The translations under genes and the position numbers were made by a program. Positions 30,768 to 37,037 of a DNA stretch of 48,248 nt are shown here, one piece after another. Under the pieces are notes generated by a model. The model saw nothing but the letters and a program-made list of their open reading frames with translations. It was not told where the DNA came from and made no database searches. The stretch covers positions 1 through 48,248 of the forward strand of contig DYPS01000008.1 in NCBI GenBank assembly GCA_020719775.1, given 5' to 3'. The stretch comes from Desulfosporosinus sp. (GTDB taxonomy: Bacteria > Campylobacterota > Campylobacteria > Campylobacterales > Arcobacteraceae). The stretch's first letter is position 1, and each line of letters starts with the position of its first letter.

Positions 30768-33700
30768 ATGCAAGCAGAGTAAGCTTCAATTGACGGTAAT
30801 CCTCTGTTTCGCTACCTGCATATTCATTGCTTCATCCATATGTATCGTGTTCTCAACAAATTCAATCCAAGTACCTCTTTCATCATTAAGGCGATTACTT
30901 CGGTAAGCCCCGATTTAAACTTTTCCGACGCATAGAACGTCTATATCACTCGAAATAAAATCATCAACTCTTCTACAATCTCATCTTCACCTACCTCAGC
31001 TAAATAGTAACTGGAGTCATCATCACCATTATTTATGCCTCACTTAATTTACTCGTCCCCGAACTCATTCGACAGTTTATGCACTTCATGAGAGAAAAAC
31101 ATCTTTAAAAGAAAGAGTATGGAGATTTCATTTAAAAATTCATAGTCATACAGTTTCTAAGGATATTCTTTTCAGAACATTCTAAAAGATTGTTTCATGA
31201 ACTAGCTATCAAAATCTAAAGCACACTGGCTCGTAAACTTGTCTCTAAATCCCTGAGAATGGCCAAGGAGTGCAGAGATCGCATCCCATAATCATAAATA
31301 ATTCAGCTATAAAACGTAGACCTAAAACTGATATTCACACTTTTCAGAAATATGAATATCGTATTTTAAGCTCCTTTTACAATCATTGTGGCATTAATAG
31401 TTCTCTTCAACTAAAGTTCTCATTATGGTTTTATCGGAGTTTATTGGTTTATGATAGCCTTTTTGTTGCAACGAGAGCTAGATGGAAGAATGATGCACTG
31501 CAATCAAACTAAACTTGATTTAATAGAAAAGCGTTCGAACATCAACTACGATCTCTTTGATAAAATAAAGTAGGCAAAGCTGATTGGTTGGGAGGATATC
31601 GTTATTTAAAAAAATAACAATTTATTCATCGAATAAAATCATGACCACTCTCTTTTTTATGGTTATGCCACACTATATGATATTACTCTACTCATGCTCC
31701 CAATTTTTGTTGTTTTTACTATCACTCTTTATGACGCCAATGAAGAAGATCCTATTACAGTCTAACAGGTATATCTTATGCTTTCTCTTCTTGGTGTTTG
31801 CTATAATCCTATGAAATCAATCAGAGTTATCTCAATCAATCTTCATGATGGACTTCACAGTCTCAAAAGACTTTCAAGATACTTCCACTTTCCTTAAGAA
31901 ACAAAGTCATCACTTATCGATACCAGCCAAGGATATGTCGGATAAATATCTATTCAGCAAGGTACTGTGGCAACATATCCTCACTCTAGCTATGATTTTG
32001 ATATTCGAGTTGATGTGGCTATAAATATTCAGCCTGGAGAACGATTGACTATTCTTGGTAAAAAGAAAGCTGGTTCCAGTTCATTTTTATAAATGTTGGT
32101 GGGCAATATGAAGAGAATTAAAGGAAAAATATACATAAATGGACAGATATCTTACTTATCTTAGAAATTATTTTTCTTGAAAGACACTGTTAGATAGAAC
32201 ATTCGTTTTTTGAATAACACGATTTCCAATTCTGAAATATAAGATATTTACAATGAATTAGGACTCAATATGGATTTTCGATTTGATGATGATCTGCAAA
32301 CAATGATGGATGATACCAATAAATTTTCAAAAATGGTTCTGAAAAAAATAGCCTTAGCAAGAGCTTTATGCGCAAATGCTGACATTTACATTTTGGATAG
32401 TCCTTATACAGATCTTGATTATGAAATTGTTCAGGTTGTTGAAAAACGATTGAGGTAATTATAAGAAAAAGGAAAAACAGTTGTAATATCATTTAAATAT
32501 CTATAACTCATAAAATAAACGGATCATTTAATCATTCTTGAAAGAGGAGAAGTAGATGAATATGGTCGTTTTTCAGAGTTGCTACCTTGTACATAGTCTA
32601 GAATTTTGTTTTTCCTGAAATCCAATGAAGATAGAAAATAAATTATGGAGCCTGAAACAGGAAGAATTTAAATGAGATTCCATTAAAGAGTAAAAAGTGC
32701 GATTAACTTCTAACTTAAATCAGCAGTTCCGTCTTTCAAAAAGGCTAAGATGAAATTAGCAAACCTTCCGTTGGCTAAGTTTGGGCTCAAATTAAAGTAA
32801 TAACAAAGAAAATAGAAAGTCCCAGTTAGTTAAAATTTTGAACATTTAGTAATGAAATTTTTGACTTCTGTTTCTTTTAAATAGAGTATCTTCATATGTA
32901 CCAATGAAATAATAAAGTTATAATCATTTTAGCTGCAGAAGTTTTACACATTTTCATCCACTTCTACATCGGTCACCTATAAGAATAATTCGGAAACGCA
33001 GACTACACTAAATTCAAAAACATGATGATAGCTGAAGTTATTCTAACTTTCTGTCTTGCTGGATTGATCTATCTCTAAGGCTAGTTCAGTACAATTTTAG
33101 CAATTATAATTGGTAACAAACTCTATTAAGAAAGTTTTTATGAGTTAGCACATAAAAGACTTTCCTGGTATTCCAACTAATACAGTGTAAAAATGGCAGA
33201 TAGATATAATCACGTACTGAGTTTGTTATTTAGGATTACTAATAAATATTTATAGCATGTCATAGCATATTTGGCATTTATAAAAATCTAGTTATTTTGA
33301 TTGCCACAATTGAGTTCATTTCAACCAATAGATCTAAACTTATTGCCATCTTCATTGTACTCGCATCAATCTATTATTCGATATTCTACCTCTTTCGCAA
33401 AATTTAACGGAGAATTGTTAAATATTACTATGATTATAAATATAGCTATGTTCGAGCCCTAGAAGAAAGTATCCAGGGTGCATAGTTATTTAATATTTGT
33501 GGACTCAAAACACAAGTCATTGAAAGAGCAGAATAAAAATATCAAAATTTGGCTTCATATAAGTTAGCAGAATCTTACACTGCTTATGGATTGTCATTAA
33601 TTTGCGATATATTATCTATCACATTGCTTGCAATTGGTATTGAATATGGAATATAAATGAAGATACATCACAGAGAGCAGCGTATTTCTATTGTCGCTAC

Positions 33701-34740
33701 ATCGATCTTTCTACTTATGAATATCTCTGAAGTTTTAAAAACAATTATCAGAGAAATGCTCAGTTTTGAAACATTCTTCTCTATAAATTTAGTAATTATG
33801 AAATTATGAAGATTCCTTTCATGGATATCGGTGACAAACCAGTTCAATCTGAAGATGATGAAGAAATCCCTCCTCTCAAACCTTCGGCAGATTTTAAAGG
33901 CTACAAACTTTAATTCAATAACCTTCTCCTCTAAGAAGCTGGTTAAAATTTGCAAAAGAATCATATATTTAGCTTGACCATAGAAGAAGGAGAAATTGTT
34001 CTTCTTTATGAGAAAGATAGTAGATTTAGAGATTTGATTTTGTTCGCGCTGACAAAAAATTTACCTATGTTCAATGAACCATAATTTTTCAAGTCCAAAG
34101 CTTCAACCATACGTTTGGGAGGAGTCAATATAAGAGATGCAAGACGTCGATGTATTTATAGTTTTATGTAGAATGGCATTCGATGATAGGAGTAATCACT
34201 AGTTAAAACTTTTATTTCAATGGCACTATTCGCTAGAATATAAATTGGAGAGAGTAAGTTTATGATGAAGATGAAGCTAGAAGATATGCTTACATGCTTA
34301 GATTCGATAAAGATTTTCCTAGAATCAGTTAGGATATACTCTCATCAAAGCTAAATATCGAGAGTAAAAAAATTAATAACACTCTCATTAAAAAAATTGC
34401 ATTACTACGTATTTTGGTTAAAAAACCAAAAGTTATTATTATTAAAGATACTGATGAAATTATTTAATCTCTTTCCATAACATAGTTGCTCAAAGAGGAA
34501 ATTCCAAATTGCACTATCATCAAAATTAGCAATCTTTTATAAACTTCATTTGATGTAACCAGAATTGTGGCCATGGACTGTATGGAAATTTTGCAAGATG
34601 GCGACCCCAACGATATTAAAACCAACTCAAAAAGCAAACTAGCAGAGGAACTTCGGGATGTGAATATAAACAGCTATAAATTCATGAAAAATCTTATGAT
34701 TGGGGGTAAAAATAGGGCAGGACCATTAGTTTTCAAGTGA
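30768..34740 (+). CDS. ABCC-like full transporter with degenerate nucleotide-binding domains (1290 aa)
   Basis: Five 20-nt introns (30871-30890, 32898-32917, 33214-33233, 33792-33811, 34152-34171) give 1290 aa. The architecture is that of ABCC/MRP half-repeats: TM block 1 (about residues 75-330), NBD1 (400-600), TM block 2 (680-990), NBD2 (1040-1260). Helices such as IVTGVIITIIYASLNLLV and LIAIFIVLASIYYSIFYL are clear. The ATPase motifs are badly altered. The Walker A position reads LGKKKAGSSSFL, so the invariant Lys is Ser; the LSGGQ position reads FSKMVLKKIALARA; Walker B is YILDSP without the catalytic Glu. In NBD2 the P-loop is replaced by LLYEKDSRFRDL and the signature is absent. The frame and all splice sites are intact, so it is not an obvious pseudogene. 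I infer a non-hydrolysing relative of unknown role. Confidence 0.85.
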
Positions 34741-35837: not shown

Positions 35838-37037
35838 ATGACAAGCAAAGTCACAAGATTTATTCAGACTCATCTGGCCAAAGAAATACAGGCAATGAAA
35901 GATGCTGGAACTTACAAAGGCGAAAGAATCATCACTTCTCCTCAACTCTCTGAAATTCAATCCAACGGGAAAACTGTCTTGAACTTTTGTGCCAACAACT
36001 ATCTTGGCCTTGCAAACAATGCAAGATTGATTGAAGCTGCTAAAAAAACCTTGGATACACATGGTTTCGGTATGAGTTCAGTTCGTTTCATTTGTGGAAC
36101 TCAAGATATTCATAAACAATTAGAGAAAACTATCTCCAACTATTACAATGTAGATTATTGCATTCTCTTCCCTAGTGGATTCGATGCAAATGCTGGATTT
36201 TTTGAAGCTATTTTTGGACCCTAAGACGCTGTAATAAGTGATGCTCTTAACCATGCTTCAATTATCGATGGTATTAGACTATGTAAGGCTCAAAAATATC
36301 GCTTTAAACATTTAGATATGTCTGATCTATAAGAGCAACTAAAATCAACAACATCAGCAAGAATGAGAGTTATTGTGACTGATGGAGTATTCTCAATGGA
36401 CGGAGATATTGCTCCTCTTGATAAAATATATCAACTCGCTCAAAAATATGATGCTTACATTTATGTTGATGAGTGCCATGCTGCAGGATTTATTGGAAAA
36501 ACAGGAAAGGGAACTCCATAATTATTTGGACTTCATGGAAAAATTGATTTTATTAGTTCAACATTGGGCAAGTCAATGGGTGGAGCTTCAGGAGGTTTCA
36601 TTGCTTCATCCAAATAAGTTGTTGATATTCTTAGAAACAGAGCTAGAACATATCTTTTCTCAAATTCTATTGCTCCATCCATTGTTGGTGCATCACTTGA
36701 AGCATATAAACTGCTTGAATAAAGTTCTAATCTTATTGAAAAGTTAAACAAAAACACCCATATTTTCAGAACAACAATGAAAGCTGCTGGATTCAGAATT
36801 TTAGGACATGATCTATGCCCCATTGCCCCTGTTTGGCTGGGAGACGCTAAAATAGCAACTGAACTATCAAATAGGATGCTTCTTTAAAACATTTTTGTGA
36901 TCGGGTTTAGTTTCCCAGTCGTACCGAAAGGATAGGCTAGAATTAGAGTGCAACTTAGTGCTGGACATTCTGAAGAACAAGTTGTTAGATGTGTATAGGC
37001 CTTCAAACGTTCTGGCAAGGAGCTTAAAATAATCTGA
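35838..37037 (+). CDS. kbl: 2-amino-3-ketobutyrate CoA ligase (glycine C-acetyltransferase, 399 aa)
   Basis: Cleaves 2-amino-3-ketobutyrate with CoA to glycine and acetyl-CoA, the second step of threonine breakdown after threonine dehydrogenase. Intronless, starting [20 protein letters not shown]; the length equals E. coli Kbl (398 aa). Alpha-oxoamine synthase family features are all present: [33 protein letters not shown], the aspartate of [13 protein letters not shown] that binds the PLP ring nitrogen, and [14 protein letters not shown] with the PLP lysine at about K245. I see no convincing mitochondrial presequence at this ATG; an upstream plus-strand frame rich in Leu/Ile is out of frame. 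Convergent with the next gene (71 bp). Confidence 0.96.

Follow-up and report, generated by a model that had tools for sequence, protein, structure and literature searches.

The gene at positions 30768-34740 (+ strand) of the DNA analysed here encodes a 1290-aa protein that, judging from its sequence, is a member of the ABCC (MRP/CFTR) family by descent, yet fails the criteria for an active ABC ATPase. We consider it probable that this is an intact gene of a peritrich ciliate, i.e., one whose product has lost ATP hydrolysis and has kept the architecture of an ABC exporter under purifying selection.

Origin of the contig and genetic code

The window, i.e., the whole stretch of 48,248 nt analysed (contig C216), is a eukaryotic contig that was mis-binned in a bacterial assembly of 2.85 Mb. 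Under the bacterial code few long frames were found, and long frames appeared once TAA and TAG were read as sense. Over 20 further contigs of this assembly also carried protein kinase genes with in-frame TAA/TAG. The dependence of the long frames on a sense reading of both triplets, together with these similar sister contigs, indicates that the window is ciliate DNA binned by mistake with a bacterium. The assembly has been rated as 100% complete and 0.32% contaminated, yet it contains more than 20 ciliate contigs (e.g., L057-L076 and L078-L092), to which its contamination estimate is blind.

In the kinases of the sister contigs (L018, L019, L020, L021, L022 and L024) TAA and TAG fall on conserved Glu positions, for example in the APE motif and in helix C. 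Over the kinase columns with at least 60% conservation, TAA was found on Glu 11 times and TAG on Glu six times, and neither was ever found on Gln. In addition, the Pfam scores increased in 5/5 kinases tested when both triplets were translated as Glu. The nuclear code is one in which TAA = TAG = Glu (NCBI table 30, Peritrichia). The common ciliate code with Gln (table 6) was ruled out by the triplets on conserved Glu and by the kinase Pfam scores, and the code of Oligohymenophorea sp. PL0344 (UAA=Lys, UAG=Glu; PMC10553269) was rejected, TAA at conserved columns falling on Glu 11 times versus four on Lys. Because the assignment UAR=Glu has been reported to have arisen once among ciliates, in Peritrichia (PMC10553269), the source organism is most likely a peritrich (bell-animalcule type) ciliate. 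ARAGORN detected two tRNA-like genes with no anticodon assigned (L059:7532-7616 and L090:10673-10757), which might include reassigned suppressor tRNAs.

The change of code has consequences for the ABCC-like protein itself. Compared with the standard ciliate translation, in which in-frame TAA/TAG are Gln, 59 of the 1290 residues differ when they are read as Glu. The motif losses described in the first-pass annotation stand under either code, the exception being the Q-loop of the first nucleotide-binding domain (NBD1), where the apparent Gln is a Glu (codon TAG). Translation with code 30 brings back the canonical TVRENI/TIRENI motifs in both NBDs, and the ABC_tran score went from 54 to 64 bits with the correct code, the gene model having also been refined between the two scans. 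As this gene exemplifies, conserved motifs can be masked when the wrong code is applied and Glu is translated as Gln.

Gene structure and ABCC membership

The gene finder was trained on the window and on 20 stretches of the sister contigs L057-L076, 21 ciliate sequences in all. Over these sequences, 180 of the 255 predicted introns were exactly 20 nt long (83% of the short introns), with the genome-wide consensus GTA...A(-6)TTTAG; they are shorter than in Paramecium, for which a mode of 25 nt has been reported. The ABCC-like gene has six exons and five introns and ends with a TGA stop. Each of these introns has a length of exactly 20 nt and the genome-typical splice consensus: intron 1 (30871-30890, GTACCTCTTTCATCATTAAG, PWM score of 13.1 bits), intron 2 (32898-32917, 9.0 bits, the weakest of the five), intron 3 (33214-33233, 13.2 bits), intron 4 (33792-33811, GTAATTATGAAATTATGAAG, 11.8 bits) and intron 5 (34152-34171, 16.1 bits). 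On the + strand of the gene only five 20-mers reach the score of the weakest intron, and all five are located on frame changes. The number of intron-scoring 20-mers expected by chance per junction (inside the frame overlap) is 0.005-0.04, so the five introns together cannot be put down to luck, and genome-typical 20-nt introns at the frame changes mean that the reading frame is intact. The gene coordinates, the length of 1290 aa and the five introns given by the first-pass annotation are all confirmed by the 20-nt intron model. Signs of a pseudogene (frameshifts, stops or broken splice sites) were absent from the 1290 codons of the modelled gene.

Other models were rejected. A first one with introns of 20/35/35/20/29 nt was superseded by the genome-wide 20-nt rule. 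The 188-nt intron 3 preferred by the gene finder itself deletes a segment of the second transmembrane domain (TMD2) that fits the ABCC pattern, and the frame change there is already explained by the consensus intron at 33214-33233. Intron 4 holds an 8-bp tandem duplication (aattatga x2, 33794-33809); its reading as a tandem-duplication frameshift was not favoured, the 20-mer scoring as a normal intron (above 16% of the known ones), and from the DNA alone a frameshift origin of this frame change is still conceivable. Just downstream of the gene (35838-37037) the window holds an intronless glycine C-acetyltransferase-like gene, with 51% identity to one bacterial copy (L010) and ca. 30% to the others sampled.

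As read from its sequence, the protein is a full-length ABCC-type protein with the order TMD1-NBD1-TMD2-NBD2, forward and in one chain. Exon 1 (30768-30870) codes for the N-terminus, an ABCC-like lead-in to TMD1, and exon 2 (30891-32897), open in codes 6 and 30, contains TMD1 and NBD1. TMD2 starts in exon 3 (32918-33213), continues through exon 4 (33234-33791), as supported by the gene model, the collinearity with MRP1 and the core analysis, and finishes in exon 5 (33812-34151), which also has the first half of NBD2. The second half of NBD2, the C-terminus and the stop are found in exon 6 (34172-34740). Pfam detected ABC_membrane (PF00664) at residues 76-337 and ABC_tran at residues 409-540, both in exon 2, and weaker second stretches in the C-terminal half. 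TMD1 covers about residues 73-337 (31004-31798), NBD1, delimited by Pfam, PDB matches and the NBD alignment, residues 382-599 (31931-32584), and NBD2, delimited by PDB matches and the NBD alignment, residues 1013-1251 (33884-34620), split by intron 5.

The best PDB matches were AtABCC2, MRP3, YCF1 and MRP1 (E 1e-37 to 1e-35), with MRP4 and CFTR also present, and the best 26 sequences were all ABCC or CFTR. Thus, both the domain order and a greater similarity to ABCC than to ABCB and other subfamilies speak for ABCC membership by descent. The second half alone still had MRP1 at the top of the PDB search, with half-transporters nearly equal in score, and is collinear with MRP1 in the alignment. 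When scanned alone it is weak (16.8 bits for NBD2 and 13.4 bits for TMD2, below the Pfam cut-offs), unlike in the ABCC/MRP and ciliate ABCC proteins. Nevertheless, domain order, full length and the collinearity of both halves are shared with the ABCC/MRP full transporters (MRP1, MRP3, YCF1 and plant ABCC2) and with the ciliate ABCCs. The NBDs of the ABCC-like protein share only 17-24% identity with functional ones from ABCC proteins. No TMD0 was found in the protein, nor has one been reported in any of the 60 ABCCs of Tetrahymena (PMC2984421).

The two ATP sites

Both NBDs were aligned with 17 reference NBDs and 16 ATP-site residues were scored in each. NBD1 was identical at 7/16 and NBD2 at 0/16; by residue class the matches were 9/16 and 6/16, compared to 14-16 of 16 in six functional NBDs. 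In NBD1 the Walker A remnant GKKKAGSSS (32057-32083) has the second Gly replaced by Lys and the catalytic Lys by Ser, the signature reads FSKMV (32324-32338) instead of the canonical LSGGQ, the Walker B (32396-32401) keeps its Asp and has Ser at the catalytic position, the Q-loop Gln is changed to Glu and the H-loop His is lost (K/F). What NBD1 retains is G1, G3 and Ser of the P-loop and the Asp of both the Walker B and the D-loop. The losses are more extensive in NBD2, where the P-loop position (LLYEKDSRFRDL, 34001-34036) reads YEKDSRFRDL, with no Gly and with Lys replaced by Arg, the signature remnant is INNTL (34372-34386), the Walker B remnant IIIKD (34435-34449) has Asp changed to Lys and Glu to Asp, and the H-loop His is Asn. 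The motif remnants noticed in the first pass, GKKKAGSSSF at 32057-32086 and the NBD2 stretch above, are both present. Its statement that both ATPase sites are destroyed holds completely for NBD2; for NBD1 the loss is functionally decisive and not total.

Each nucleotide-binding site (NBS) pairs the Walker motifs of one NBD with the signature of the other. NBS1 therefore combines K to S, E to S and H to K/F with the opposing signature INNTL, and NBS2 combines K to R, D to K, E to D and H to N with the opposing FSKMV. With the Walker A Lys, the Walker B Asp, the catalytic Glu, the His switch and an opposing LSGGQ taken as the criteria for an active ABC ATPase or transporter, neither site qualifies. 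ABCC proteins such as MRP1 and CFTR normally have a degenerate NBS1 that binds ATP and barely hydrolyses it, and hydrolysis is carried out at site 2, made of the NBD2 Walker motifs and the NBD1 signature. Here site 2 is wholly lost and site 1 lacks its Lys and its partner signature; hence, given what is established about ABC catalysis, normal ATP hydrolysis by the predicted protein is excluded. Productive ATP binding has very probably been lost at both sites, and some residual binding at site 1 is conceivable.

This is different from the ABCC/MRP proteins and the ciliate ABCCs, in which NBS1 alone is naturally degenerate. The heterodimeric exporters and MRPs also tolerate the loss of catalytic residues from one ATP site, but in these a canonical second site drives the cycle, and in the ABCC-like protein it is the second site that has been lost too. 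Word searches of open-access papers found no description of a full-length ABC protein with both ATP sites dead.

Selection, alternative readings and possible role

There are 187 single-base changes that would create a TGA in the gene. In a neutral-decay simulation that considered substitutions only, before counting indels, the probability of finding no TGA was 5% at a divergence of 0.05 substitutions per site and fell to 0.4% at a divergence of 0.1. Neutral drift sufficient to erase the ATP sites would almost surely have brought TGA stops. The hydrophobic core was kept at 46/49 positions in NBD1 and 45/49 in NBD2, near the level of functional NBDs, whereas composition-matched shuffles had means of 61-62% and maxima of 75-78%. 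At the ATP sites the identity of NBD1 (7) was near chance (shuffle mean 4, maximum 8) and that of NBD2 (0) below it (mean 3.3). A uniform neutral process cannot explain a spared core together with ATP sites at or below chance. The splice sites were intact in 5/5 introns, and synonymous codon preference was at the 49th percentile of the other genes for the whole gene and at the 8th for NBD1 alone. Past selection for the ABC fold is well supported by these sequence data, and present-day selection is probable, not proven. Single-sequence AlphaFold models gave a pLDDT of 33 and no usable fold; from the sequence we infer that the NBD fold has been retained.

A decaying gene would have lost the function of its ATP sites long ago, passed through an interim role and seen selection relaxed only recently, with the frame still open. 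The low codon preference of NBD1 and the low identity to functional ABCC NBDs would fit with this, and pseudogenization has been proposed among ciliate ABC duplicates (PMC2984421). However, we regard it as unlikely, because a neutral divergence above ca. 0.05 per site would almost surely have left a frameshift or a TGA in 1290 codons, the five introns are intact and the core is conserved at the level of working NBDs. Somewhat less likely still is a working transporter whose residual NBS1 still binds ATP by means of an unorthodox P-loop, with very slow hydrolysis or none. The P-loop, Walker B and D-loop residues kept by NBD1 agree with it, as does the fact that a degenerate, ATP-binding NBS1 is normal in this family, but the catalytic Lys is Ser, the Q-loop Gln and the H-loop His are lost, the opposing signature is INNTL and NBS2, the hydrolytic one in ABCC proteins, is gone.

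It is very improbable that a wrong gene model or code, an assembly error or a chimera makes a normal gene look dead. Although the contig sits in a bacterial bin and the code first assumed (table 6) was wrong, the motif losses are located inside exons, are substitutions rather than shifts and are independent of the code, and the gene model was built on genome-typical introns.

Searches for orthologues found none in ca. 1,000 whole bacterial genomes (genus, family, order, class and phylum samples), nor in the genome_contigs or viral_contigs collections; in these prokaryote and viral collections only stray ciliate contigs could match, and the pattern scans were back-translated by the standard code, so that any pattern containing a TAA/TAG residue would have been missed. 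The top matches listed by tblastn against plasmids were ordinary bacterial ABC proteins with 20-22% identity. The same bin yielded no second recognisable ciliate transporter of the ABCC type; contig C164 has a short NBD of canonical type in which one TAG is in frame, of ciliate or other origin.

Of the readings considered, the selected, non-hydrolysing, transporter-like protein proposed in the first pass thus finds the most support, from the motif losses, the intact spliced frame, the conserved core and the simulation of neutral decay; the regulator, channel or scaffold role attached to it is conjectural. In such a protein the NBDs would be structural domains that are docked on the TMD bundle and do not depend on ATP. 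In both, the lost Q-loop Gln is soon followed by a canonical T-V/I-R-E-N-I, and this region lies near the NBD-TMD interface in ABC exporter structures, which suggests that docking on the membrane part has been kept and the ATP engine dropped. We infer that the protein may not be a pump and may instead serve as a partner with a regulatory or scaffold function or as a passive conduit, any choice among the three being speculative. The hypothesised role has an analogue in CFTR and SUR1/SUR2 (ABCC7-9), ABCC members repurposed as a channel or channel regulator. However, these still bind or use ATP and have at least one competent site each, whereas here no site has a usable pair of Walker A/B and signature. 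Its origin was probably a neofunctionalisation in the course of the known large expansion of ciliate ABCCs (60 in Tetrahymena and 46 in Paramecium; PMC2984421).

More tentatively, and with our opinion leaning slightly against it, there may be a eukaryotic lineage of full-length ABC proteins without any use of ATP, in which the ABC exporter fold is maintained for a channel, a facilitator or a regulator of receptor type that works independently of ATP. In ABC proteins, the engine is considered to be the joining of the two NBDs, driven by ATP. If a full-length member with both sites erased is indeed under selection, this would mean that the exporter fold can persist for an ATP-free job, and the protein would offer a natural way to test which contacts between NBDs and TMDs are still required when catalysis is gone.
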